The notes under the pieces were generated by a model that was given only the letters and a program-made list of their open reading frames with translations, did no database searches and was not told the DNA's origin. A program made the translations under genes and the position numbers. 39,520 nucleotides of DNA from Bacteroidales bacterium (GTDB lineage Bacteria > Bacteroidota > Bacteroidia > Bacteroidales > Cfx3-03): assembly GCA_023251485.1 (NCBI GenBank), contig JAHEYR010000007.1, forward strand, positions 1-39,520. Reading direction: 5' to 3'. Below are positions 1-35,641 of the stretch, one piece after another; position 1 is the stretch's first letter, and each line of letters starts with the position of its first letter.

Positions 1-693
1 TTTGACATAGGGGGTAATGATATCGATAGGGAGTTTGCTGACTTTCAGATTGATTTTGTATTCATTCGTCTGAAGATTTAGCGTGGTACGACTGTCCACA
101 GTAGCTTTGTCGCCTATCTTCAGGTGAATTCCGGCATCGGTATTGCCTTGATCAAAAGCAAGTTTGAGAATAGATACGCCCAGTTCATTCATCGTGATGG
201 TGCTTTTCAATTGCAAGTCGCTGTAGATAAGCTTGCCACCACTGACATAAATATTCTTAAGTACGATGGATTTTGGAAATGAAGACTTTGCTTTTTTTAC
301 CTTGCTCGTATCTTCTTTAGGCATGAGGTCATCAAAATTAAATTTACTTCCATTTTGAAGGATCTCAGCGTAAGGATGGATGACTTTTATTTCGGTTACT
401 TCAACTCTTTTGCTGATCAGTTTATACAGTGTCATGTTCATCTTAAAGGAGTCGACAGAAGCAAACAAATCGTGATTATTTGCTTCATACATCTTGATGA
501 AATTCATTCTCAATGATCCTGTGAAGATATTCAGATGCAGATCTTTAATCGTTACTTGTCGTCCGATGAGTTCTTTACTATGTTTTTCTATATAGTTTTT
601 AGCGATGGGCGAAATAGATAATGCCAGTGCCAGAATGATTACTGCCAATATTGATACAATGATCAGTGTTATCTTTATTATCTTGCGTTTCAT
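1..693 (-). CDS. AsmA/DUF748-like protein, N-terminal part (runs off left edge)
   Basis: An open frame of 231 codons starts at an ATG (complement of 691-693) and stays open to base 1, so the stop lies outside the window. The protein starts MKRKIIKITLIIVSILAVII, giving a short basic head and one membrane helix at about residues 6-27. It continues with a periplasmic, beta-rich region containing SPIAKNYIEKHSKELIGRQV and VTEIKVIHPYAEI. This layout (N-terminal anchor, a segment about entering the membrane and 'GRQVTIKDL', then repeated short strands) is that of AsmA/DUF748/YhdP-like envelope proteins, which act in outer-membrane lipid homeostasis. The family assignment rests on this partial N-terminus only. 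It is divergent from the ndh gene. Confidence 0.6.
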   Translation of the reverse strand, partial: MKRKIIKITLIIVSILAVIILALALSISPIAKNYIEKHSKELIGRQVTIKDLHLNIFTGSLRMNFIKMYEANNHDLFASVDSFKMNMTLYKLISKRVEVTEIKVIHPYAEILQNGSKFNFDDLMPKEDTSKVKKAKSSFPKSIVLKNIYVSGGKLIYSDLQLKSTITMNELGVSILKLAFDQGNTDAGIHLKIGDKATVDSRTTLNLQTNEYKINLKVSKLPIDIITPYVK

Positions 694-828
694 GATGGGA
701 TACTATATAGTTTTAACCTTTACTGAGAAATAGTATAACAAAATTCAGCTAATATTTGTTAAATAGCAAATCAAATACTTTGTTTTTGGTTTAGCGCAAC
801 TGATTGTTAAACTTAAAAAAGGGGTGAA

Positions 829-915
829 ATGAAATTAACTTCACAATGGGAAGGAGCCATTAGTGATGGATTTAAAAATGAATTTAATGAGATTAAAGTT
901 AACGATGATAAATGA
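829..915 (+). CDS. Possible 28-residue peptide or gene remnant
   Basis: A short ATG frame of 28 codons ends in TGA. It is preceded by a purine-rich stretch (AAAAAGGGGTGAA) that could serve as a ribosome binding site. The peptide begins MKLTSQWEGAISDGF and is mostly polar. It is not recognised and has no membrane segment. It sits between the divergent AsmA-like gene and ndh, in otherwise AT-rich DNA. It may be a decayed N-terminus of a larger gene or a chance frame. Confidence 0.25.
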   Translation: MKLTSQWEGAISDGFKNEFNEIKVNDDK

Positions 916-20428: not shown

Positions 20429-22069
20429 ATGAAATCATATCGTCAAACTATTTTAGCCACTGTCCTTGTAGCAACAGCGCTTTTTATGGCGACACCTACC
20501 AAGGCCTGTACCAACCTGTTGGTCACCAAAGGAGCCACAACCGATGGTTCCACCTTCATCTCCTATAATGCCGACTCGCACACCCTCTATGGCGAGCTCT
20601 ACTACTGGGCAGCAGCTACCCATCCCAAGGGATCGATGCTCGATGTTTACGAGTGGGATACTAACGAATTTCTGGGCAAAATCAAGCAAGTTTCCCAAAC
20701 CTATAAAGTAGTGGGCAACATGAACGAGTATCAGGTAGCTATTGGCGAAACGACCTATGGTGGTCGCGAAGAGCTGCAGAAACAGCCCGGTGCCATCGTA
20801 GACTATGGGAGTCTCATCTATATCGCCCTGCAGCGTTCAAAGACAGCACGCCAGGCCATCAAAGTGATGACCGACCTCGTGGCCGAATATGGCTATGCCA
20901 GCGAAGGTGAGTCCTTCTCCGTATCCGATCCCAATGAAGTCTGGATCTTTGAGATGATCGGCAAAGGAGCCGGCGAAAAGGGAGCCGTTTGGGTAGCCCG
21001 TCGCATCCCCGAAGGATACATTTCGGCCCATGCCAACCATGCACGTATCACGACCTTTCCGTTGAACGATCCTGAAAATTGTATGTATGCTCCCGATATC
21101 ATCACCTTTGCTAAGAAAAAAGGATATTATAAAGGAGCTGATGCCGATTTCAGTTTCTCCGATACCTATGCACCCGTAGATTTCGATGCAGCCCGTTATA
21201 GCGAAGCCCGTGTGTGGTCGATGTTTAATCGGTTGAATCACGAGGCCATGGCCCCCTATCTCGACTATGCCATGGGCAAGAACTTAAAGAACCGCATGCC
21301 GTTGTGGATCAAGCCTACCCAGAAAGTAAGCGTTCACGATGTGATGGAGATTATGCGCGACCATTATGAGAACACCCCGATGGATATGACCAAAGACATG
21401 GGTGCAGGGCCTTACGATTTACCCTATCGTTGGCGTCCATTGTCGTGGAAAGTAGATGGCGTTGAATATCTCAACGAGCGTGCTGTTTCTACACAGCAGA
21501 CCGGATTTTCCTTTGTAGCGCAAAGCCGGAGTTGGTTGCCCAATACGCTGGGTGGCATCATCTGGTTTGGTGTAGACGACACCTACAGCACCATCTACAC
21601 ACCGATGTATAGCAATATCAGTAGTGCCCCGGAAAACCTGAAGGCAGGCAATGGAGCGATGATGACCTTTTCAGAGACCTCCATGTTTTGGATCTTCAAT
21701 CAAGTAGCCAATTTCGCTTATACCCGTTATCGCGATATCATTCCTGAGGTCAGAGCCAAGCAGGCACAATTGGAGAGCAAATACATCGCTATGGTGGCTG
21801 AGAACGACACCAAATATCTACAGCTAGCCAAACAGAACCCCAAGGCCGCGGTGCAGGCCCTTACGCTCTTCTCTCATGCCCAGTCGAAGAATACCTTTGC
21901 CACATGGAAGACCCTCTATCAAGACCTCTTTATGAAATATATGGATGGCAACATCAAGACCGTGATACCCGGTAAACGCGATCCCAAGGTTTCGCAGCCC
22001 GGATATGGTGATGCCTGGTACCGCAAGATCGTAACAGAGACTGGCGACAGACTGAAAGTGTTGAAATAA
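20429..22069 (+). CDS. Secreted C69-family dipeptidase
   Basis: The 546-residue protein belongs to the peptidase C69 (PepD) family of N-terminal nucleophile hydrolases. A signal peptide of 26 residues ends in TKA, and C27 follows directly (ACTNLLVTKGATTDG). Removal of the leader would expose this Cys as both N-terminus and catalytic nucleophile. Conserved segments are SDPNEVWIFEMIGKG, ISAHANHARITTFP and RYSEARVWSMFNRLN. It would act in the periplasm or outside on dipeptides. It ends at a strong terminator. Its codon use matches cysDN rather than the AT-richer genes nearby. Confidence 0.9.
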   Translation: MKSYRQTILATVLVATALFMATPTKACTNLLVTKGATTDGSTFISYNADSHTLYGELYYWAAATHPKGSMLDVYEWDTNEFLGKIKQVSQTYKVVGNMNEYQVAIGETTYGGREELQKQPGAIVDYGSLIYIALQRSKTARQAIKVMTDLVAEYGYASEGESFSVSDPNEVWIFEMIGKGAGEKGAVWVARRIPEGYISAHANHARITTFPLNDPENCMYAPDIITFAKKKGYYKGADADFSFSDTYAPVDFDAARYSEARVWSMFNRLNHEAMAPYLDYAMGKNLKNRMPLWIKPTQKVSVHDVMEIMRDHYENTPMDMTKDMGAGPYDLPYRWRPLSWKVDGVEYLNERAVSTQQTGFSFVAQSRSWLPNTLGGIIWFGVDDTYSTIYTPMYSNISSAPENLKAGNGAMMTFSETSMFWIFNQVANFAYTRYRDIIPEVRAKQAQLESKYIAMVAENDTKYLQLAKQNPKAAVQALTLFSHAQSKNTFATWKTLYQDLFMKYMDGNIKTVIPGKRDPKVSQPGYGDAWYRKIVTETGDRLKVLK

Positions 22070-22092: not shown

Positions 22093-22126
22093 CCGGGGTG
22101 TCTTTTAATTAATAAAGATACCCCGG
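22093..22126 (+). terminator. Hairpin terminator after the C69 dipeptidase gene
   Basis: A 13-base arm (CCGGGGTGTCTTT at 22093-22105) pairs with 22114-22126, with one mismatch and an 8-base AT loop. A T-rich tail follows. It lies 24 bases after the stop and faces the convergent small gene, so it may work in both directions. Confidence 0.75.
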
Positions 22127-22152: not shown

Positions 22153-22497
22153 CTATTGATTTGCTTTTTTATCTTCATTTAGAATTCCTTTTTTATTTGC
22201 TTGTATTATTTTCACTGTTATATAGGCTAGTCCAAATCCAATTAGATATAAAGTCCCATCTCCTATTGGTGCTGCATTCTCATTTCCATTCGCACCTCTT
22301 TGTGGCAAATCCGGAGGGTCGGAACTAGGCAAGTCTTGACCTGAAATTGATCCTATGAAAAGGAAGAAAAAAAGAATAAGAAGTATTTTTTTTAATCGAG
22401 AATAGAAACCGTTAGTTGTAATATGAAAGAAAGTAACCCCTTTGATTTTTAGAGAGCATATGTCTCCATTGTTTTTAAATAAATTGTAGTTTTTCAT
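22153..22497 (-). CDS. Small secreted protein with PID-CTERM-like C-terminal anchor
   Basis: The 114-residue protein has an unusually long N-terminal region (about 34 residues) before a hydrophobic stretch (ILLILFFFLFIGSIS, about 38-52) that ends in GQ like a signal peptide. A short proline/acid-rich linker (PSSDPPDLPQ) follows. The C-terminus has PIGDG at 77-81, then about 18 hydrophobic residues and a basic tail (IIQANKK). The order 'PI-D/G-G, membrane helix, basic end' resembles the PID-CTERM sorting tail of Bacteroidota, though the match is imperfect. It starts 12 bp after the large T9SS protein gene and is almost certainly in one operon with it. Function is unknown. Confidence 0.6.
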   Translation of the reverse strand: MKNYNLFKNNGDICSLKIKGVTFFHITTNGFYSRLKKILLILFFFLFIGSISGQDLPSSDPPDLPQRGANGNENAAPIGDGTLYLIGFGLAYITVKIIQANKKGILNEDKKANQ

Positions 22498-22509
22498 GAT
22501 TGTTGATTT

Positions 22510-25500
22510 TTAGGTGATTCTGATTTTCCGAAAGAATAATTTGTTGTTGTATTGAATTTTAATGATGTATATTCCATTGTTTTCTAATTGAAATTCGAGA
22601 GAACTACTTTGTAGTTTTAAATTCTTTATTAATTTTCCTGAAATATCATAAATTGTGACATCACCTGGTTTTACAAAATCAGACGTTCTTAAATACACCG
22701 TTTTTTGAAAAGAATAAAGTGTAATACATTTATTATCAGACGAAGGGTCTAATCCTGTGATAACATCTATTTGTAGTGAAAACCTGTCTTTTATATCAGT
22801 AGAGTCACTTTTAAAAGTAAAAGATGATGAATTACTTAGCATGTATTTCTTTTTATCTAGTTTATCTTCCAATGTAAACGTAGAACTCTTTAACCAATCA
22901 TCTGAAATCTCGGCTTTGAGAGTATATTCAGTAGATAACCCTTTTATAAACTGAAAATTAAATGATAGTGATGAGGCTGGAGGAACACTATTGGTGGATA
23001 ATTTTTGGCCATTACTTAAGATTGAATAGAATAGAGGCGTTCCATACATCCCTTCTAAAAATGGAGAATCATATTCGGCATCAAATAGGTTTGATGCCTT
23101 ATCATTAAGGATGAGTTTTGTCTCTGAATAAGTATTATCTGTGGTACTATTAATGATGAGTTTTATTTTCTTTACCGAACTGGCTTTTAGACTTTTCCAT
23201 CCACTGGCTATCGCATGAACTCTTGCAGACGTTGGAATTGTAATGGAATTAGTATTATTGATAGCTCGAATGAAAAATCCGTTCATTGACGGTATTATTT
23301 CTCCTTCCTCCATATCAGAGTAAGTTCCTCCACTATTGAGAATCTTGGCTATTGAATTAATTCCAACAGTATTCCATCCTGTATACCAGGTTAATCCACT
23401 TGTAAATGGATTTCCCAATAAATGCCATCCCCGATTATTAGTCAAGGTGAGATTTGTAAATTTGATATCCGTATTATTTGGTGTTCCGGCAATAGATCTG
23501 ATTATTTCTGTATAATAGGAAGCCAGATAACCCTCGCCATTATTAAAGGAAACAAGATTATTTGAACCTAACTTTTGGTTAATCCATAAGTTATCAGATT
23601 CTCGATAACCAAATAAATCATCATCTAAGCTTGGTTTAAAAGAGTCACTTATCAGCGGATTATCAACAGGCGAACTTATAAAATGCCATCCATCTGTTTC
23701 TCCAACGTATTTAATGATAAAACGTTCAATCAGTATTGTTCCACTACCACTGATTTTTCCATTACAAATAAAAGAGGCTGCTGCACCATGATTGTTTGGC
23801 GATTTTAAAACCATACAATTCACCCCTTCAAATGAACAGTTACCACTTACGGTTAACGTCGTTCCAGCCTTAAGTGATAATACTGCACCAGTTCTAATAA
23901 TCAATGATTTTAGACTGATATCTTTTGAGTATATTGGTTTGTTAGTAACATCTGGTATTTCAACATCCGAATCCATTCCGGGAGCCACGCCAGTTGCCCA
24001 GTTTCCTGCCGTTTCCCAATCAGTTGAGATACCACCTTTCCAAACAATTGCATTACTGGCACCATAATCTGAAATTGCAATATCGTCTATGTTAATAGCC
24101 GAAGCTATTGCTGTTAAAGACTGAAGAATCCTAAACCTTATATTACCTGTTTTATTGATTGTGAAATGTACCATTTCCGGATTCTCTGAACATGAAATTT
24201 CCGAACCCTCATTAACCCATGAAATCCCACCATCTATTGAACTTTGTAGTCGCCATTTCCCTCCTGTGTCCGATCCGTAGTTTGAATAACTTACCAATAC
24301 ATCTCCAGCTCCATTTGTTTTGTCATAGCACATTGTAATACTTCCTGCCACATTTGTAATACTATTTATTTGGAGACGTGCAGACTTTCTTCCCCTCTTG
24401 TAGTCCAATGTAGTATTTCCAATTAGTGCATCTTTAAATGACCATGATCCTTTAGTACCCGTTATGAGTTCTGTATTGTTATCTGTTTGAGTCCCTTTCT
24501 CAAAATTTTCAATCCAATTCATCTCATACACGGACCCGCTAATCGGAATAGTGCTCAATAATACACCGTCAATAGTATGGGTGATAAGATCATTAGAATA
24601 ACTCCCTGCTCTTGCTGATGCAGCACATCGAACATAAACTTTTTGGGAAGACAAGGTTGATGTTGAATAGGGTAAAGAACAACTAGGTGAAAAAATTTGA
24701 TTATCCATTGATACTTCATAATTGGTTGGTGCAGTTATGATGATAGGATTGCCTCCGGATGGTAGATCGTCACCTGAAAGAAGATATTGTTTTGGGACAG
24801 ACGCAATACTGTCCTGAATTCCATATAACCCTGTTATTGATTTGGGAGACACTGATAAAGTTGGAGCTGCCGGAACAATCCATTTTATTGTAACATCATC
24901 TATTGCCAAGAAATGTGCTAATGGAGATGTACCAGCTTTATTCCATCTTATTATGAGATATGATCCAGGGGGTATACTTATTCCCTGGATTGATATATCT
25001 TTAAAAGTTACACTATTTTCAGGTAAGTTACCGTTTAATTTTGTTGAAGGCGGTCCATATTTAGGTGTGTCAAATTCGAGTGCAGGAACTGTAGTCCATC
25101 CCGAACCTGTGACAATCTGATTGAAAATTGATACAATCTTATATCCAAATTTTATCTCTTGAAAACTTGTATAACCTCCATTAAACCATTGTTCGCCTTT
25201 ATAACTAATACTAACTTGAGAGATATTCTTTGATGATTTATTTTGTAGAGCCACTCCCATAGCTAAAGAATAATCTTTATCTGGAACCACTCCCATTGCT
25301 CTATCACTACTTCCTGTGACTCCAAAACTCTTTTTCCCTGAAGTGGCATCTGTTCCATCTGTTGCAGAATAAGTGAAATACTTATTCTGATTTTGAATTT
25401 GCCAATACCAGCCAGGGATGGTGTTATTGTCTGTCCATGAGGCTGACCCTGAAGGCACAAGATTTTCAAAATTCTGACTATATGAGCCAGTATGTATCAT

Positions 25501-25590
25501 CTCTATTTGCGCTTCTCCATTAATAGGGGAAAAGATTCCTATTAAGGACATTGCATTTACAAAGTAGCAAATGAATGTCACTTTTTTCAT
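22510..25590 (-). CDS. Large secreted T9SS cargo protein, putative adhesin
   Basis: The roughly 1,025-residue protein has a signal peptide (MKKVTFICYFVNAMSLIGIF, ending GEAQ). The frame extends to an ATG at 25605, but the internal ATG at 25590 gives a normal signal peptide. It then has beta-rich modules typical of Bacteroidota surface proteins. One is a concanavalin-like N-terminal block (YSQNFENLVPSGSASW). Another is an Ig-like block starting TLSVSPKSITGLYG. A third contains WKGGISTDWETAGNWATGV, followed by a strand-rich region. The C-terminal ~75 residues (VYLRTSDFVKPGDVTIYDIS...IYIIKIQ...FRKIRI) form a type A T9SS sorting domain, so it is probably exported by the type IX system and attached to the surface. 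No catalytic motif was seen. Confidence 0.8.
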   Translation of the reverse strand: MKKVTFICYFVNAMSLIGIFSPINGEAQIEMIHTGSYSQNFENLVPSGSASWTDNNTIPGWYWQIQNQNKYFTYSATDGTDATSGKKSFGVTGSSDRAMGVVPDKDYSLAMGVALQNKSSKNISQVSISYKGEQWFNGGYTSFQEIKFGYKIVSIFNQIVTGSGWTTVPALEFDTPKYGPPSTKLNGNLPENSVTFKDISIQGISIPPGSYLIIRWNKAGTSPLAHFLAIDDVTIKWIVPAAPTLSVSPKSITGLYGIQDSIASVPKQYLLSGDDLPSGGNPIIITAPTNYEVSMDNQIFSPSCSLPYSTSTLSSQKVYVRCAASARAGSYSNDLITHTIDGVLLSTIPISGSVYEMNWIENFEKGTQTDNNTELITGTKGSWSFKDALIGNTTLDYKRGRKSARLQINSITNVAGSITMCYDKTNGAGDVLVSYSNYGSDTGGKWRLQSSIDGGISWVNEGSEISCSENPEMVHFTINKTGNIRFRILQSLTAIASAINIDDIAISDYGASNAIVWKGGISTDWETAGNWATGVAPGMDSDVEIPDVTNKPIYSKDISLKSLIIRTGAVLSLKAGTTLTVSGNCSFEGVNCMVLKSPNNHGAAASFICNGKISGSGTILIERFIIKYVGETDGWHFISSPVDNPLISDSFKPSLDDDLFGYRESDNLWINQKLGSNNLVSFNNGEGYLASYYTEIIRSIAGTPNNTDIKFTNLTLTNNRGWHLLGNPFTSGLTWYTGWNTVGINSIAKILNSGGTYSDMEEGEIIPSMNGFFIRAINNTNSITIPTSARVHAIASGWKSLKASSVKKIKLIINSTTDNTYSETKLILNDKASNLFDAEYDSPFLEGMYGTPLFYSILSNGQKLSTNSVPPASSLSFNFQFIKGLSTEYTLKAEISDDWLKSSTFTLEDKLDKKKYMLSNSSSFTFKSDSTDIKDRFSLQIDVITGLDPSSDNKCITLYSFQKTVYLRTSDFVKPGDVTIYDISGKLIKNLKLQSSSLEFQLENNGIYIIKIQYNNKLFFRKIRIT

Positions 25591-26036
25591 TCGCAGTTGT
25601 TGCATGACAATTAAGAATTAAAAGTGATATTTCTAAAAAAGCCAAAAAATGAAGAGAGTAAAATGGACAGGAAATCATAAAAAGACTAGGTGGCAAATTG
25701 CTCAGGTCAAAATGAATTAGTAAAAGATCTTTTAACTTCAATATTGTAGCTACTAAATATACAAACTAATTATATCAGATTCAATATGCTTTGGTCTAGA
25801 TTGTTATAATTTGTATTTATTATAAATTAATATCAAAATCATCTTTTAGTATGCAAACTAATTGAATTTGTAGTTAATTTGATTAATTAAAAAGTCGACA
25901 ATTAATGAGGCTAGAACTATTACAAATAGTCACTTTTGATTTTGACAAGTAAAGATCTTTGGAAATTAGAAATTTAAAGATGCACTAAACTTTATGTTTA
26001 TGTAATTGATTAGTGAAATTGAAAAAATTAAGAATT

Positions 26037-26510: not shown

Positions 26511-29345
26511 ATGAAAAGACGAACGTTCTTGCTTCAGGGTGCTTCTACTGCAGGAGTTTTATTATGCCATATGCCATCATTTTCAAATGTCTTTCTTAAA
26601 TCAAAGGATGATAATCTGTACGCATTATTTGATAATGTATCTGCCAACTATCGTCCTTTCGTTCGTTGGTGGTGGAATGGGGATAAAATAGAGAAAACGG
26701 AAATCGCCAGAGAACTTCAACTATTGAAAGCGGTTGGTATTGGGGGTGTGGAGATTAACCCTATCAAATTTCCGCAACGGACAGATGATATGGGGATTCA
26801 TTCTTTGCAATGGCTAAGCCCGGAATGGATTGAGATGCTCGATTTCACGTTGACTGAGGCAAAAAGACTGGGGCTGACTTGTGATCTGATTGTGGGATCT
26901 GGTTGGCCTTTTGGGGCCGAATACCTTACGGGTGAGGAACAAGCACAGATCATGATGATCGGCGTGAAGAAACTAGAGGGTGCCATAGACTTTGAGGCTC
27001 CCATGTTTGATATTCTAAAGGAGGTTGATCCTGCTACTACCAGCCCATATGCGCATCGTAGGATTGAGGTCGTTTCCCTGTTGCTGGTACCCGATCCAAT
27101 GTCGGGATTGCATGAGATCGTCAATCTGTCGAATCAAATCGAGAGTGGTTTCGTTAAGGTTGCGATTCCGAAAGGGAAATATGCACTGTATGCGCTGGCT
27201 AGGGTGTCGGGATTTCTGGAGGTGATCAATGGCGCCCCGGGTGCAAATGGGCCTGTATTGAACCACTATAACAAGGATGCGGTAAATAAATACTTACATC
27301 ATATGAGTGATGCCATTCAGCAACAGATTGGTCCACTTAAAAATAGGATCCGCTCCTTCTTCATGGATAGTATGGAGATGGAAGGAGCCAATTGGACGAT
27401 GGATATGGCGGATGAATTTAAAAGAAGAAGGGGTTATGATATCATGCCCTATCTGCCTTTCGTGTTGCTCAAAACAGGAGGCATGGGAAATGTGACTGAT
27501 TACAATTATGGCACTTCATACACTATTGCGTTTGGTGAGGTGCTTGAAAGGATGCGGTATGACTTTGATAAAACGAAGACCGAGTTATTGCAGGAACGCT
27601 TTGTCGACTCGTATAGCAACTGGTGTAAAGAAAATGGAATTAAATCGAGGGCGCAGGCTTACGGCCGCGGTTTCCATCCGTTGGAGGGAAGTTTCAGCAT
27701 GGATATCCCCGAGTGTGAGACCTGGATAAAATATGGCCTCGGAAATGAGTTGTCGGAAACGGATTATCGGTTAGGTAGAGCCTATTCTATGGTTAATAAA
27801 TATGTTTCGTCAGCTGCTCACCTGCAAGGAAAACGTCTGGTCAGTTGTGAAGAACTGACTAATACGGACATGGTATTTAATGAGACTTTATCGATATTGA
27901 AGATCGGTGCAGATCAAAGTACGATCTCGGGTGTTACGCATCCCGTCTTTCACGGCTTTAACTATTCACCTAAAAATGCTCCCTTCCCTGGCTGGATACG
28001 CTATGGTAATTTCATGAATGAGAAAAATACCTTCTGGCCATATTTCCAGTACTTCAATGATTACAAAGCAAGGCTGTCGGTGCTTTTGCAACAGGCTGAT
28101 ATGTTCGCAGATATCGCCATCCTCCCACCTGTTTATGATTGGTGGGCTAAATACGGTTCACCCAACGAGCCTTTCCCTTCGTTTACTTTTCCGAATTATC
28201 TTTCCTTGATATGGGAAGCAATCCATCAGAATGGACATGGTTGCGATTATGTCTCTGATTCGGTAATTAATAGCGCTGAGATGAGCGATGGCTTTCTCAG
28301 ATTTGGCCCTCGAAAATATCATACGCTCTTCATGGTTGAGGTGGAGAGTCTGGATCCGGTAACAGCTAAAAAGCTGTTGGCATTTTTGAAAGTGGGAGGA
28401 CGGATCTTCTGTATTGAATCGGTTCCTTCTAAATCATTAGGGTTTAATAACTTCCAACAACGTGATGCTGAGGTTCTGGCACTGGTTGCAGAGATGAAAT
28501 CGGTTACCGATCGTTTTATCTTTATCAGGAAACCCGATAAAGATTATTCTACGTGGTTTAAAGAACTCCGTTCAAAATATGGTTTCACTCCTTATGTGGC
28601 GATTGATCATACGGATCCTTTCATCACGCAGATTCGCTATCAGGCAAAGGATGCTGAAATATTGGTGTTTACAAATTCGAGTAACGAAAAAACTTTTAAG
28701 ATCTCCATAACACCCAACGAAAAAATGGTTATGGGTAAATATGGATGGCTATGGGATGCTGTTACCGGAAAAAGGTTTAGGTTGCCGAATAGCCGGGAAA
28801 TAGCATTGACATTATATCCTGCAGACTTGAGAATCATCGTTTTTGATAAACATTCAGGGGAAAAAGACTATTTCAAAGAGTATCCGATGCCGGATAGTCA
28901 TTCGAGAGTGCTTACTCAACCATGGAGTGTTGAATTCCATCATATTGATGGTTCAGTAAATAAGACAAATTTTAATACGTTGCCTGACCTAAAAGAGCTA
29001 CCAGATTTTGTGAATTTCTCCGGAACGGTTATTTATAGTTGCAGCTTTGAGATAGCCGGAAATATCAATTGCTCTTTTCTGGATCTGGGCAAAGTATATG
29101 GTATATCCGATGTGAAACTGAATGGGTTTCATTGCGGTGTAAGATGGTATGGCCGACACATCTACGCCATTAGTGATATGGTGAAGCAGGGTTCGAACAA
29201 CCTGGAGATCAGCATTACCACTACAATGGGTAATTATATGAAGACATTAAAGGATAATGCTGTTGCACAATACTGGACCAACGAAAAAAGAAAGAATCAG
29301 CCTATTCAGTCGATGGGACTTGTTGGTCCTGTGATCTTGTTATAA
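26511..29345 (+). CDS. GH106-type alpha-L-rhamnosidase (glycosyl hydrolase)
   Basis: The 944-residue protein resembles glycoside hydrolase family 106, retaining or inverting enzymes that release terminal rhamnose. The N-terminal block RPFVRWWWNGD followed by LLKAVGIGGVEINPIKFP is the family's characteristic start of the catalytic barrel. A conserved helical part follows (FFMDSMEMEGANWTMDM). The C-terminal part has a beta-sandwich with a carbohydrate-binding look (SFLDLGKVYGISDVKLNG). The start MKRRTFLLQGASTAGVLLC carries a twin-arginine-like RRxFL sequence, so Tat export is possible. It sits 25 bp before a GH28 gene, which suggests cleavage of rhamnose side groups or backbone fragments of rhamnogalacturonan. 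Confidence 0.82.
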   Translation: MKRRTFLLQGASTAGVLLCHMPSFSNVFLKSKDDNLYALFDNVSANYRPFVRWWWNGDKIEKTEIARELQLLKAVGIGGVEINPIKFPQRTDDMGIHSLQWLSPEWIEMLDFTLTEAKRLGLTCDLIVGSGWPFGAEYLTGEEQAQIMMIGVKKLEGAIDFEAPMFDILKEVDPATTSPYAHRRIEVVSLLLVPDPMSGLHEIVNLSNQIESGFVKVAIPKGKYALYALARVSGFLEVINGAPGANGPVLNHYNKDAVNKYLHHMSDAIQQQIGPLKNRIRSFFMDSMEMEGANWTMDMADEFKRRRGYDIMPYLPFVLLKTGGMGNVTDYNYGTSYTIAFGEVLERMRYDFDKTKTELLQERFVDSYSNWCKENGIKSRAQAYGRGFHPLEGSFSMDIPECETWIKYGLGNELSETDYRLGRAYSMVNKYVSSAAHLQGKRLVSCEELTNTDMVFNETLSILKIGADQSTISGVTHPVFHGFNYSPKNAPFPGWIRYGNFMNEKNTFWPYFQYFNDYKARLSVLLQQADMFADIAILPPVYDWWAKYGSPNEPFPSFTFPNYLSLIWEAIHQNGHGCDYVSDSVINSAEMSDGFLRFGPRKYHTLFMVEVESLDPVTAKKLLAFLKVGGRIFCIESVPSKSLGFNNFQQRDAEVLALVAEMKSVTDRFIFIRKPDKDYSTWFKELRSKYGFTPYVAIDHTDPFITQIRYQAKDAEILVFTNSSNEKTFKISITPNEKMVMGKYGWLWDAVTGKRFRLPNSREIALTLYPADLRIIVFDKHSGEKDYFKEYPMPDSHSRVLTQPWSVEFHHIDGSVNKTNFNTLPDLKELPDFVNFSGTVIYSCSFEIAGNINCSFLDLGKVYGISDVKLNGFHCGVRWYGRHIYAISDMVKQGSNNLEISITTTMGNYMKTLKDNAVAQYWTNEKRKNQPIQSMGLVGPVILL

Positions 29346-29370
29346 GTTTCCAAAAAAAATATAGTATGTT

Positions 29371-30834
29371 ATGATACATCAAAAAAAGAGTTTCGTTATT
29401 CTGTTGTTCCTTCTTCAGGTGCTGATGGTTCAGGCAAAAGATTATCCGGCTTCCTTATTCCGCATTAAGTCTGATGGAGTTACTTTGAACACCCGATCTA
29501 TTCAATTTGGGATCGATTATATCAGTAAGAACGGGGGCGGTCGGTTGGTATTTTATGTGGGTAGATACCTCACGGGCTCCATCCATCTAAAATCGAATGT
29601 CACCATCCAACTGGAAGAGGGTGCTGTATTGGTGGGCTCAGTAAATCCTTTTGATTATGATCGGTCTGCTTTGTCTGCTGCGTTGGTATTGGCTGACGGA
29701 CAGGAAAATATTGGCATAACAGGAAAGGGGGTGATCGACGGACAGGGTAGAGCACTTGCGAATAACACGATTGAAAATGTACATAACGGGTTGATTAAGG
29801 ATCCTTTGAAATACGACCGAACGCAGGAGCGGCCAATGATAATATATATGCGGTCGTGCAGGAATGTCAGGATGAACCATATCACACTACAGAATTCTGC
29901 TTTTTGGTTACAGACGTACGATCAATGCAAGAACTTGCTTGTTGACAGCGTGACAGTACATAATGTGGCCTTCTGGAATAGTGATGGAGTTGATATTGTG
30001 GATTGTGATAGTGTTCAGGTCAGTAATTGTTATATCGATGCTGCGGATGACGGTATTTGTTTAAAATCGCATGATGCAAAGGCTTTTTGTAATAATGTGC
30101 TGATCCGGAATAATGTGGTACGTTCGAGTGCTAACGGGATTAAGTTCGGAACAGCTTCGCGGGGTGGCTTTCGAAATATAAAGATCTTGAATAACACGGT
30201 GTTTGATACCTATCGGTCGGCTATTGCATTGGAGAGTGTGGATGGTGGTTTTTTGGAAGATGTAGTCGTTGATGGTTTAAAGAGTGTGCATACAGGTAAT
30301 GTTATCTTTTTACGACTAGGTGAGCGGGTAGCAGGAAAGAAATCGACCATGCAGCGGATTACGATCAGGAATGTGGTTGCTGAGGTTCCGCAAGACAAGC
30401 CCGATGCGGGTTATGATTATGAGGGTCCCGTTGAGGATATGCCACGCAATATTTCGCCTGTGATCATTGCCGGATTGCCCGGACAATATATCAATGATAT
30501 TACTTTCTCTAATATCGACATTAAATATCCGGGGGGAGGAAAGGCACTATTTGCAAATGTTCCTTTGGATAAGCTGGAAAGCATTCCGGAAATGGCTGCA
30601 AGTTATCCTGAGTTCTCCATGTTTAAGGAGGTTCCGGCTTGGGGTATCTATATCAGACATGCAAGAAACCTTCATTTTTCTGATATTAAGTTGAAAGCTG
30701 AAAAGAAGGACTATCGGCTTCCTATTGTGATGGACGATGTACAGGCAGCTCAACTGGATCAAATCAAGATTGAGCAGATTGGATTAAAGAAGATTTATCA
30801 TGCTTATAAATCCAGTGAAGTCAATGTGAAGTAA
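29371..30834 (+). CDS. GH28 polygalacturonase-type pectinase
   Basis: The 487-residue protein has a signal peptide of about 22 residues (ending VQA) and a right-handed parallel beta-helix. GH28 active-site motifs are visible: NSDGVD at 203-208 and ADDG at 225-228 (the Asp residues). The ANGIKFG at about 254-260 replaces the usual GHG motif. Such enzymes hydrolyse galacturonic acid linkages in pectin or rhamnogalacturonan. The replacement of GHG suggests an exo- or specialised activity rather than classical endo-polygalacturonase. It lies between the rhamnosidase and susC genes and is co-directional with both. Confidence 0.86.
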   Translation: MIHQKKSFVILLFLLQVLMVQAKDYPASLFRIKSDGVTLNTRSIQFGIDYISKNGGGRLVFYVGRYLTGSIHLKSNVTIQLEEGAVLVGSVNPFDYDRSALSAALVLADGQENIGITGKGVIDGQGRALANNTIENVHNGLIKDPLKYDRTQERPMIIYMRSCRNVRMNHITLQNSAFWLQTYDQCKNLLVDSVTVHNVAFWNSDGVDIVDCDSVQVSNCYIDAADDGICLKSHDAKAFCNNVLIRNNVVRSSANGIKFGTASRGGFRNIKILNNTVFDTYRSAIALESVDGGFLEDVVVDGLKSVHTGNVIFLRLGERVAGKKSTMQRITIRNVVAEVPQDKPDAGYDYEGPVEDMPRNISPVIIAGLPGQYINDITFSNIDIKYPGGGKALFANVPLDKLESIPEMAASYPEFSMFKEVPAWGIYIRHARNLHFSDIKLKAEKKDYRLPIVMDDVQAAQLDQIKIEQIGLKKIYHAYKSSEVNVK

Positions 30835-30906
30835 CGTAAAATAAATTAATTCAATAAACACATTAAGACGTTGATTCGTCATTTACTAAATGAAAAACTA
30901 CTATTT

Positions 30907-33900
30907 ATGAGAATTGCTGTTTTTTTAATATGCCTCGGAATACTACAAGTATTTACTACAAATGCCTTTTCAAACAAGAACAAAGAGTCTTTAAATTTCA
31001 ACCTTCTCAAGTCAGACGAGATCATTGACAATAATGCAGTCACCATTGATCGGAATGTCAGTTTAACTGCTGAAGATTTACCACAGCAGAAGAATAAAGT
31101 TTCAGGTACTATTACGGATGCCAGCAGTGGAGAAACACTCACCGGGGTCAATATTCTGATAGAAGGAACGAGTTTTGGAGTGGTCACTGATCAGAAAGGT
31201 CACTTCAGCATCAATGCACCAAAACTTAATTCGGTTTTAAACGTGTCGTATAAGGGCTATAAGAGCCAACGTATAGTTTATATCGGACAACAAATTTTAG
31301 ATATTAAACTTGTTGCGGGTGTTGAACTATTGAATGAAGTAGTCATTGTAGGTTATGGCAATCAAAAGAGAAGAGATCTTACCGGTTCTGTCTCTAATCT
31401 AAAAGCTGTTGACGTGAAAGATGTGGCCGCTGCAGAATTCGGTCAAAGATTACAGGGTAAAGTAGCGGGATTGCAGGTAAGTGAGGTTTCGGGAAGGCCA
31501 GGACAGGGGATGACCTTTAGAATAAGAGGTGCAGCGTCTTTAAGTTCAGGAAATCAGCCATTATACGTTATTGACGGGCAACCGATTACAGGTGACATCA
31601 ACCTCGTTAATCCGGATGATATCGAAAGTTTCAGCGTTTTAAAGGATGCTGCTGCCACTTCGCTTTATGGAAGTAGGGCCAGCAATGGTGTTATTTTGAT
31701 AACTACCAAACAGGGTCAAAAAGGCCAGACTTCTTTAACTGCCAATATTTATTATGGAATTCAAGAAGTTCCTCAGCGTGGAAGACCTGATCTGATGAAT
31801 GCAAATGAATTTGCCACTTTTATGAAGGGGTATTATGAGGATAAAATAAAATATGAAAACTGGAAGAACCCCTCAACGGGCCTGGCAGAAGTACCTGCTG
31901 AATATGCTGATCCCTCAAAATACGGTAAAGGAACTGATTGGTATGATGCTGTATTAAGAAAAGCGCCCATACAGAATTATAGCTTAACCTTCACTTCGGG
32001 CAATGACAAGTCGACTTCAAGTTCATCGTTGACCTATTTTGACCAGGATGGGGTTGTTCTGAATACGAATACGCATCATTATGCATTTAGAACAAACAAT
32101 GAATACAGACCTAACGACAAGGTAAAGGTGGGATTGAATTTGGCCCCCACTTATCAGCTTGATCACAACACCCGTGCATCAATTGATGGCAACAGGGCTA
32201 TTATAAGCGGTTCCGGGACAAGCTCTCCTTTGATTAGTGTCTTTGATAATACCGGAAACTACAACTTGAGTACGAGCTCTTATGGCATGTATGCGTTACC
32301 AAATTTCGTACAACAGGCTCAACTGCTTTCAGTAAACCAAAACACCTTTAGGATGCTTGGAAACCTCTATTTTGATGTGGAAATTATTAAGAACCTACAT
32401 GCAAAGGCCGCTGTTAGTACAGACTTAGGAGCTGCTGATTACAACGCATACTATGGAAAACTTTATGGCTCGTTTGGTTCACCTCCTCCCCGTGCAACGG
32501 CTACTGCCCTATCATCATCATATAATTACACCTCCTGGTTGAGTGAAAACACCATTACCTATGCAAACAATATAGGAGAACATAACTTTGATTTTCTTTT
32601 GGGGTATAGTTCACAAAAATATGAACAGAATAACCGTGTAGTTAATGGTTCGGGCTTTGCCAATGATGCTATTCCCTGGATCATTGCCGCCACTACGACC
32701 TCAGGAAACACAAACCATGCCGCATGGTCTGTTGCTTCTGTATTTGCAAGAGCAAACTATAACTTTAAAAGCCGATATTATCTCAATTTCAATATTCGCA
32801 GAGACGGCTCTTCCCGTTTTGGTGAAAATAAAAAATACGGCAACTTCCCTTCAGCCTCTGTCGGTTGGATCATGAGTGATGAATCTTTCTTCCCAAAATC
32901 AAATATCGTTTCTTTCTTTAAACTGAAAGGTAGCTATGGACTTACCGGTAATTTCAATGTTGGTAACTATACACAGGTTTCTTTATTAAGCGCCACAAAT
33001 TATGTGTTTAATAATACAACTACAATGGGGCAGTCTATGACCAGCTTGGGGAATAAAGATTTAACCTGGGAAACATCGAAACAAACGGATATCGGGGCCG
33101 AAATGAGATTGCTCAAAAACAGAGTTACCGTTAGTTATGATTATTATATGAAAAGGACAGATGGTATGTTGTCTTCTCTGCAAATCCCTTATGCTTCAGG
33201 ATATTCAGTGATATCGTATAACCTTGGAAACTTCAAAATGTGGGGGCATGAAATACAGGTGAGCTCAGACAATCTAACCGGTCTGCTAAAATGGACCACC
33301 GATTTTAATATCGCATTTAATGATAACAAGGTAATTAAATTAATTAATGGCACCCCGCTGGGCGGCGTTAACACCTATAATGATTTTAATCGCACGGCAG
33401 AAGGACATCACATTGGTGAGTTATATGGATATGTTTATGAAGGGGTATACAAAGATCAGGCAGATCTTGATAACTCTCCGAAAGAGGCTACTTCTGCTAT
33501 CGGCACTGCAAAAATGAAAGATGTAAATGGTGATGGTAAAATCGATATTAAGGATAGAACATTTATCGGCAATCCAAATCCTAAATACATTTTTGGAATC
33601 ACCAATAATTTCAAGTATAAAAATTTCGATCTGAATATCATTATAGCCGGCCAGATCGGGAATAAGATTATGAATATTAATCTTCAGAACGAGCAGAATC
33701 TTGATGGCATTTTTAATATCGATAAAAATATGCAGGATAGATGGCGTTCGGAAGCAAATCCGGGAAATGGACAGGTACCCAGAACATTGAGCAATACGAC
33801 AGAACTGTACCGAACCACCAATACCAATTGGGTGTTTAGTGGCGATTATCTAACCGTAAAAAATATTTCACTGGGCTACACTTTTAACGCTAAACAATGT

Positions 33901-34080
33901 CGATATTTTAAAGGCATCCGCATTTATACAAGTGTTCAGCAGGCTTTTGTATTTACTAAATATCCGGGGCAGAACCCTGAAGTAAATGATAGCAGGGATA
34001 GCCAAACCACAGCGGGACTGGATAATGGTTCATTCCCGATTCCGAGAACATTTATGATCGGCGCAAACATTAGTTTTTAA
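30907..34080 (+). CDS. SusC/RagA-family TonB-linked outer membrane protein
   Basis: This large TonB-dependent transporter imports oligosaccharides across the outer membrane with its SusD partner. The frame opens at a TTG (30871), but the ATG at 30907 gives a proper signal peptide (MRIAVFLICLGILQVFTTN). A CarboxypepD_reg-like domain (VSGTITDASSGETLTGVN) is followed by the plug with the SusC hallmark NQPLYVIDGQPI and a long beta barrel ending in aromatic-tailed GANISF. No FecR-interacting STN domain is seen, so direct anti-sigma coupling is unlikely. SusD follows after 25 bp. It probably takes up rhamnogalacturonan or pectin fragments. Confidence 0.93.
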   Translation: MRIAVFLICLGILQVFTTNAFSNKNKESLNFNLLKSDEIIDNNAVTIDRNVSLTAEDLPQQKNKVSGTITDASSGETLTGVNILIEGTSFGVVTDQKGHFSINAPKLNSVLNVSYKGYKSQRIVYIGQQILDIKLVAGVELLNEVVIVGYGNQKRRDLTGSVSNLKAVDVKDVAAAEFGQRLQGKVAGLQVSEVSGRPGQGMTFRIRGAASLSSGNQPLYVIDGQPITGDINLVNPDDIESFSVLKDAAATSLYGSRASNGVILITTKQGQKGQTSLTANIYYGIQEVPQRGRPDLMNANEFATFMKGYYEDKIKYENWKNPSTGLAEVPAEYADPSKYGKGTDWYDAVLRKAPIQNYSLTFTSGNDKSTSSSSLTYFDQDGVVLNTNTHHYAFRTNNEYRPNDKVKVGLNLAPTYQLDHNTRASIDGNRAIISGSGTSSPLISVFDNTGNYNLSTSSYGMYALPNFVQQAQLLSVNQNTFRMLGNLYFDVEIIKNLHAKAAVSTDLGAADYNAYYGKLYGSFGSPPPRATATALSSSYNYTSWLSENTITYANNIGEHNFDFLLGYSSQKYEQNNRVVNGSGFANDAIPWIIAATTTSGNTNHAAWSVASVFARANYNFKSRYYLNFNIRRDGSSRFGENKKYGNFPSASVGWIMSDESFFPKSNIVSFFKLKGSYGLTGNFNVGNYTQVSLLSATNYVFNNTTTMGQSMTSLGNKDLTWETSKQTDIGAEMRLLKNRVTVSYDYYMKRTDGMLSSLQIPYASGYSVISYNLGNFKMWGHEIQVSSDNLTGLLKWTTDFNIAFNDNKVIKLINGTPLGGVNTYNDFNRTAEGHHIGELYGYVYEGVYKDQADLDNSPKEATSAIGTAKMKDVNGDGKIDIKDRTFIGNPNPKYIFGITNNFKYKNFDLNIIIAGQIGNKIMNINLQNEQNLDGIFNIDKNMQDRWRSEANPGNGQVPRTLSNTTELYRTTNTNWVFSGDYLTVKNISLGYTFNAKQCRYFKGIRIYTSVQQAFVFTKYPGQNPEVNDSRDSQTTAGLDNGSFPIPRTFMIGANISF

Positions 34081-34105
34081 TTTACCACACAATAATATTT
34101 TGAAA

Positions 34106-35641
34106 ATGAATAAATTATTCAATTATATCCTCCTGTTAACAATCATTATCAGTACGTCTTGTAAAAAGGATTTTCTGGAATTATATCCGGAAGGACAAAT
34201 TAATGAAGGAAATTTTTATAAAACTACTGCCGACTTTCAACAGGCCGTGGTGGGTGCATATGTCCCGTTAAGAGATATTGCTACCTATGCTTTCTATATG
34301 GAAGAGATGCGTAGTGATAACACTGAATATGATTATAATTCGAAAGACCGGGGAGGGGCAGGATATGAGCAGTTTGCCGATTTCCTGGATGTCTCTTCGA
34401 ATCCTGTACTTGCTAATGTATGGCAGGCTGCCTACAAAGGAATACAACGAACGAATGTGGTATTAGACAGAATTAATAATACCGCATCTACTACTATTGG
34501 TGATGCTGATAAAAAACAAATTACTGGAGAAGCTAAAGCATTAAGAGCTCATTACTATTTTGAACTTGTGAGATTATTTGGCGGTGTACCGTTGTATTTA
34601 CATGAAGTGAAAGACAACACATCATCTTTTGTCAATCGCTCTTCAGTAGATGAAGTTTATACGCAGATTATTGCTGATTATACAGATGCATTAGGATTGT
34701 TAGCTCCACCGGCTAAATTTCCTCAAAGTGGAGTGGTTACCAAAGGAATGGTTGCAACCGAATTAGGGCTCGTATACCTCACCCGTAAAGATTACGCAAA
34801 AGCAACCCCATTGCTGCAAAGTGTAACTCAGATGGGCTATGGATTACTACCTAATTATGCAGATGTGTTTAAGCTAGCAAACAAAAACAGTAAAGAATCC
34901 ATCTTTGAGGTTCAATATAAAGCAGGGACTGATGGTCAATCGAGCTCGTTTATTTACAAATTCATACCTGTCACACCGAATACGACGAATATCTTAGGAG
35001 TCAACTATAATAATACCTCAGGCGGATTTAATGTGCCTACGCCTGATATGGTAGCTGCTTATGAAAAGGGTGATACCCGATTGGATGCAAGCATTGCAGT
35101 GGCTAAAGGTAAATTCAATTCAAATGTCGACTTTATAGCCGACAGTGTGGTCAGTATTCTGAATCCTTCAACACAAGGCAGCGTTTCGAAAATGTTTATC
35201 AGGAAATTTTATAATAAACCCTATGGACTTCAAAATAATACAGATGATAACTGGCCTTTATATCGTTATTCTGATGTCTTGCTGATGCTGGCTGAATCAT
35301 TGAATGAGCAGGGTAAACCAACAGAAGCACTGCCTTATTTGAATCTGGTTAGAACCCGCGCTGGTTTAGCATCTGCTACTTCATCAGATCAGGCTATCTT
35401 AAGAAATATTATCATGCATGAAAGAAGAGTTGAGTTAGCATTTGAAAATCATCGGTGGTTCGACTTGTTACGCACAGGTCAGGCAATACCTGTCATGAAT
35501 GCATTTGGCATACTGCAAAAAATGAAATATGCTTATATCTTACCAGCAGCCTATAATGTTACAAATGAGCGTTTAATCTACGCTATTCCTTTCAGAGAAA
35601 CTCAGGTAAATACAGCACTTACACAAAACCCCGGTTATTAA
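34106..35641 (+). CDS. SusD/RagB-family nutrient-binding lipoprotein
   Basis: This surface lipoprotein caps the SusC channel and binds the oligosaccharide. The start MNKLFNYILLLTIIISTSC gives a lipobox with C19, followed by KKDFLE, a charged region compatible with the Bacteroidota lipoprotein export signal. The SusD-type helical TPR core is seen as ITGEAKALRAHYYFELVRLF and DVLLMLAESLNEQGK. The C-terminal RRVELAFENHRWFDLLRTG is the family's most conserved segment. The frame opens at TTG 34100; the ATG at 34106 is chosen. It is the last gene of the PUL in this window. Confidence 0.93.
   Translation: MNKLFNYILLLTIIISTSCKKDFLELYPEGQINEGNFYKTTADFQQAVVGAYVPLRDIATYAFYMEEMRSDNTEYDYNSKDRGGAGYEQFADFLDVSSNPVLANVWQAAYKGIQRTNVVLDRINNTASTTIGDADKKQITGEAKALRAHYYFELVRLFGGVPLYLHEVKDNTSSFVNRSSVDEVYTQIIADYTDALGLLAPPAKFPQSGVVTKGMVATELGLVYLTRKDYAKATPLLQSVTQMGYGLLPNYADVFKLANKNSKESIFEVQYKAGTDGQSSSFIYKFIPVTPNTTNILGVNYNNTSGGFNVPTPDMVAAYEKGDTRLDASIAVAKGKFNSNVDFIADSVVSILNPSTQGSVSKMFIRKFYNKPYGLQNNTDDNWPLYRYSDVLLMLAESLNEQGKPTEALPYLNLVRTRAGLASATSSDQAILRNIIMHERRVELAFENHRWFDLLRTGQAIPVMNAFGILQKMKYAYILPAAYNVTNERLIYAIPFRETQVNTALTQNPGY

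Follow-up and report, generated by a model that had tools for sequence, protein, structure and literature searches.

A subclass of type A T9SS cargos is paired with small PID-CTERM-like proteins in Bacteroidota

The window, i.e. the whole 39,520-nucleotide stretch of DNA that was analysed, is contig C46 of genome G000 (3.3 Mb, 82% complete, 322 contigs), which is probably a metagenome assembly. G001 (JACAUB010000001.1) and G002 are genomes of the same genus; numbers beginning with L denote loci. The features discussed below are as follows.

22510..25605, minus strand: cargo ORF, 1031 aa, a T9SS type A cargo and the first gene of the pair
22516..22869, minus strand: C-terminal region of the A2 subclass, LxDLxTG...RFxLHF...IYSYxNxVYI, then the CTD without a PNP start
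22522..22683, minus strand: T9SS type A sorting domain; the TIGR04183 match starts at profile position 15 and the PNP start is missing
22498..22509, minus strand: intergenic gap of 12 bp, from the cargo stop to the small-protein ATG
22153..22497, minus strand: small-protein ORF, 114 aa, PID-CTERM-like, a predicted exosortase substrate
22396..22497, minus strand: N-terminal extension, 34 residues ahead of the signal peptide; its ATG is the sole ATG/GTG/TTG start upstream of that peptide
22336..22395, minus strand: signal-peptide-like segment LKKILLILFFFLFIGSISGQ, hydropathy peak 2.3, aligning with the signal peptides of the family
22273..22335, minus strand: Pro/Gly/Asn-rich segment of 21 residues, the predicted mature peptide according to the family alignment
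22255..22272, minus strand: APIGDG motif (residues 76-81), the proposed exosortase recognition site; family consensus AP[IV]G[GS]G
22204..22254, minus strand: membrane helix TLYLIGFGLAYITVKII and basic tail, from hydropathy; family consensus LxILLxLGAAYGxKK
22093..22126, no strand assigned: GC-rich inverted repeat CCGGGGTGTC...GATACCCCGG, terminator-like, read directly from the sequence
C311:2529-3131, minus strand: exosortase of G000, outside the window on another contig; C105, R146 and H165

The ORF coordinates confirm what an earlier note had read from the DNA: a protein with a type IX sorting domain is followed 12 bp later, on the same strand, by a 114-residue protein. Because both ORFs lie on the minus strand, the cargo gene comes before the small one. 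The short gap is consistent with a single transcript for both. The inverted repeat sits between the small-protein gene and a convergent C69 peptidase gene (window positions 20429-22069) that adjoins the pair. Such a peptidase gene is found beside or close to the pair in the window, G001, L275, L306 and L198, although for L245, L275 and L306 this link is biased, as those loci were fetched using C69 as the query. In L275, L306 and L198 an exosortase and a FemAB-like gene are also close by. Positions 26511-35641 of the window hold a divergent polysaccharide-use cluster with GH106 rhamnosidase, GH28, SusC-like and SusD-like genes.

The C-terminal part of the small protein is built as had been claimed, from PIGDG, a membrane helix and a basic tail. 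The hydrophobic stretch covers residues 82-98 (KD mean 1.74 over 17 residues), a Lys-rich end comes after it, and one membrane helix is predicted downstream of the signal peptide. The 114-aa protein itself matched nothing in NCBIfam or Pfam, even at E<=10 and E<=1, respectively, and neither the whole protein nor its tail matched the PID-CTERM model NF046080 (curated cut-off 26 bits) at E<=10. Relatives of the protein were found by phmmer in 60 genomes, and 8/12 rows of their alignment do match NF046080 PID_CTERM (best e-value: 1.5e-11). The proposed resemblance to PID-CTERM thus stands through the relatives, but not as a match of the window protein itself. A family profile made from ten relatives, with the window protein and its G001 ortholog left out, gave the window protein 44.5 bits, against 7.3 for the highest of 2000 shuffles. 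Because these relatives had been collected by means of the window protein, the score checks consistency and is not a blind test.

The G001 ortholog is 71% identical. Members of the family are about 68-83 aa long if counting starts at the methionine closest to the conserved part, and their plan is uniform: a signal peptide ending in AQ, a Pro/Gly-rich stretch, AP[IV]G[GS]G, LxILLxLGAAYGxKK and a basic end. Among 73 members the P of the motif is conserved in 99%, the first G in 79% (D in 14%) and the last G in 97%. A tail-only profile produced about 130 matches in 34 genomes, all on ORFs of at most 212 aa save one at chance level (E=0.045). The tail is confined to short ORFs and is therefore not a tag spread across unrelated large proteins; a role as a general tag of large proteins was rejected on these grounds.

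The long N-terminus before the signal peptide, previously described as unusual, is real as an ORF and is open both in the window genome and in the G001 ortholog. It is not a family feature, as typical members lack it, and it shows no codon-position bias: between the two species, substitutions at codon positions 1, 2 and 3 number 10, 12 and 18 in the extension, compared with 13, 5 and 33 downstream. Judging by these sequences, the extension may be translated yet unconstrained, and we give it no weight as a component of the system.

The C-terminus of the cargo passes the T9SS type A model TIGR04183 (31-33.8 bits, cut-off 23) and falls just below the cut-off of Pfam PF18962 (26.8, cut-off 27). 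It did not match the T9SS type B models and stays below the type C model NF033708 (18.1 bits, cut-off 40). Beyond the sorting domain, nothing in the cargo rises above Pfam or NCBIfam cut-offs, a phmmer search against the PDB gave no match, and an AlphaFold2 model of the N-terminus from a two-row alignment has a mean pLDDT of 30.6. G000 encodes a full-length SprA (2626 bits), and T9SS is therefore likely to be present in the window's genome. Of its 14 TIGR04183 domains above cut-off, 13 start at profile positions 1-3 with the PNP start, and the window cargo alone starts at position 15.

The same peculiarity is found in the partner cargos of other small proteins. Their C-termini form one alignable subclass, here called A2, with LxDLxTG...RFxLHF...IYSYxNxIYI and then the remaining sorting domain; PNP is present in only 1/66 of them. 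TIGR04183 matches each of the 31 A2 rows, and 27 of them also give a weak match to the type C model. The window cargo scores 102 bits over the full length of the A2 profile, whose alignment includes the window row. In nine genomes, where TIGR04183 cargos number from 14 to at least 150 per genome, none of the 150 best-listed TIGR04183 matches has a small-protein gene directly after it, and all 150 include the PNP part; this comparison was made by position among the highest scorers. By the A2 profile, about 20 of 34 strong full-length matches are followed by a small-protein gene (in eight of the nine genomes and G002) and about 14 are without such a neighbour, while 21/24 small proteins in the same eight genomes and G002 come after an A2 match. 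The A2 profile favours paired cargos because it was trained on the partners; the PNP and TIGR04183 results are independent of it. Pairing is confined to this one type A subclass, in which the sorting domain has no PNP start.

Some A2 loci have no small protein of this family. In G014 and G029 an A2-type cargo is present and both the tail protein and the exosortase are absent. In L228, L229, L231, L232 and L235 (genomes G014, G029 and G031, without the tail protein), A2-type cargos are followed by other ORFs of 52-67 aa, which share a pattern KPxxxxIxLDxxISLxxMS...PP...NPFK-like end and resemble precursors of peptide natural products; in L231 one of them lies beside a PqqD-like protein. In L244 (G032; positions 478-840, reverse strand), a protein of 120 aa that carries a different tripartite tail (PIPVSIPTNAYFILTLATLYIVYVLLFRKKRKE) comes after an A2-type cargo. 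G032 contains an XrtX-like enzyme and no PID match, so this tail may represent a further type of tag belonging to that enzyme family.

Conservation of the pair was found well beyond the window. In G001 the orthologs of cargo and small protein adjoin each other, 14 bp apart, and the peptidase gene lies beside them there too. In 60 regions chosen by small-protein score, 65/73 family members lie directly 3' of a T9SS-tailed ORF on the same strand, with a median gap of 36 bp. Among the remaining eight, one comes after another small protein and seven have no cargo upstream (one of these at a contig edge). For other genes of the same loci, a T9SS cargo was the upstream neighbour in 6/113 cases. A further 80 loci were fetched with the C69 peptidase as query and hence blind to the small-protein family. 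Three of them (L245, which is G001 itself, L275 and L306) contain the small protein, and in all three it directly follows an A2-type cargo. Similarity among small proteins of one genome tracks that of the cargo C-termini (rho 0.65; 0/2000 shuffles), and from this co-divergence it follows that the pairs are inherited as units. On this evidence the pairing is not accidental.

The family also co-occurs with an exosortase. Among 392 genomes of the order, the small protein was found in 118 and an XrtX-like exosortase in 153: 109 genomes have both, 9 the small protein only, 44 the exosortase only and 230 neither (Fisher p 5e-49, a value that ignores the relatedness of the genomes and for which only some candidates per genome were scored). 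An XrtX-like match is thus present in 109/118 genomes with the small protein versus 44/274 without it. Within the window's genus, small protein and enzyme occur together in G000 and G001 and are both absent from G002. The G000 exosortase was missed by a PF09721 profile search of the genome and found with NF046081 (XrtX). It passes TIGR04178 (41.2 bits, cut-off 23) and is far below the XrtX cut-off (68 bits, cut-off 170), although XrtX is still its best exosortase equivalog. C105, R146 and H165 are each conserved in 96-100% of 27 sequences.

In a few loci the genes are also linked. In L123 the genes for cargo, small protein and exosortase stand side by side, as they do in L225, where the small protein is diverged; in L221 and L222 stand-alone copies of the small protein adjoin the exosortase, with no cargo beside them. 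In L275 and L306 the distance from the pair to the exosortase is no more than about 5 kb, and a FemAB-like gene is close by; FemAB-like neighbours of the exosortase also occur in L198, L218 and L224. These FemAB-like proteins are related to TIGR03019 of the PEP-CTERM system. The G000 exosortase adjoins a glycosyltransferase. In the window's genus (L216, 6436-8147; L215, 2529-3829), a family 2 glycosyltransferase gene immediately precedes the exosortase gene in the same orientation and slightly overlaps it; this glycosyltransferase gene is a candidate for synthesis of the acceptor. The FemAB-like family is noted to have a relative in VimA, a protein that P. gingivalis requires for the linking sugar of its T9SS (PMC7468200); this kinship is a hint as to the acceptor only.

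The small protein is probably a dedicated exosortase substrate, co-expressed and acting with its own T9SS cargo as a co-inherited two-gene unit. The two-part system of the earlier note is supported by the conserved pair and the PID-CTERM matches of the family. The note had named the lack of any sorting-profile match together with a pair not conserved elsewhere as grounds for calling it accidental, and neither applies, since the family matches the profile and the pair is widespread. It had missed a third part, the exosortase, and the restriction to A2. Both precursors would be exported by Sec, and the tail would hold the small protein in the inner membrane until the exosortase acts. The enzyme would cleave the small protein at APIGDG or right beside it and attach the C-terminus so formed to a lipid-linked sugar acceptor. 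The cargo would cross the outer membrane via T9SS, with its sorting domain removed by PorU, and at the cell surface it would be met by its own anchored peptide, serving as anchor, linker or assembly partner. We infer such physical joint action of the two proteins; the 1:1 gene pairing suggests that they are needed in equal amounts, as for type B cargos and SprF-like shuttles. More tentatively, one T9SS cargo class might require its own exosortase-processed, glycolipid-bound peptide as surface anchor or assembly partner; the type IX pathway and a sortase of the inner membrane would then converge on one product. We regard this broader proposal as possible and rather doubtful.

Other readings share part of this evidence. 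The small protein might stay uncut as a single-pass inner-membrane protein, with its periplasmic peptide escorting or holding the cargo before T9SS translocation. Strict pairing and co-divergence with the cargo agree with such a role, as does a conserved part that spans the helix and the following YGxKK segment, more than a simple anchor needs. However, the very strong co-occurrence with the exosortase, the adjacency in some genomes and the order of motif, helix and basic tail, which is the usual architecture of an exosortase signal, make it unlikely. Less likely again is an exosortase substrate with a general surface function (e.g. a matrix- or capsule-linked peptide) that was placed after the cargo merely for shared expression. 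Genomes with several similar copies, the stand-alone copies beside the exosortase in L221 and L222 and the roughly one tenth of copies without an upstream cargo would all fit, but the pairing is confined to one sorting-domain subclass in genomes with up to at least 150 other cargos, and the two genes co-diverge within genomes.

That the small protein gives immunity-like protection from its own cargo is suggested by the gene order, in which the gene for a large exported protein has a small gene immediately 3' of it. The same small family stands behind cargos of varied size, no toxin domain was found in the window cargo and the exosortase link would be left unexplained, and we consider this highly improbable. 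Accidental neighbours, finally, would account for the lack of a direct profile match of the small protein and for nothing further. With the ortholog pair in G001, the blind C69 loci, the 65/73 pairing and the co-divergence all against it, this explanation was rejected as scarcely credible.

The tag and the enzyme have already been named by NCBI (NF046080 and NF046081). As the two NCBIfam accessions are consecutive, the curators probably paired tag and enzyme. Our literature search, to which most subscription journals were outside so that a prior description is possible, found no paper on PID-CTERM, XrtX or T9SS coupling. In the parts that were accessible, none of the literature treating exosortases and T9SS together appears to describe the pairing of cargo and small protein. 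In F. johnsoniae, xrtF affects surface colonisation, and its substrates were left to future work (PMC10936215). The pairs make up a putative natural substrate set for Bacteroidota exosortases, with linked cargo and enzyme. The two-gene unit recurs across many Bacteroidota genomes and links two protein-display systems previously studied apart. The unit further points to diversity among type A cargos, of which one subclass has a dedicated partner gene.

Among known systems, PID-CTERM/XrtX shares the tail architecture and includes the best equivalog of the enzyme, but the window protein does not match its tag model and the window genome's enzyme scores far under its cut-off. F. johnsoniae RemA and RemZ (PDB 8gl6 and 8gl8; PMC10994853) are type A proteins whose C-termini match the whole length of the A2 profile (49.9 and 46.4 bits); in the portions of that work available to us, a PID-CTERM partner is not among their described features. 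The PEP-CTERM/exosortase (EpsH) system has in common the signal peptide, motif, helix and basic tail, a Cys/Arg/His exosortase and some FemAB-like neighbours. There the tail is carried by many unrelated large proteins, whereas here it belongs to one small-protein family paired with T9SS cargos. A dedicated partner gene behind the cargo gene is an arrangement that we otherwise found described for type B cargos only, with their PorP/SprF-like shuttles (PMC12618676). In that system the partner is an outer-membrane beta-barrel; here a type A domain is combined with a tiny membrane-tailed partner.
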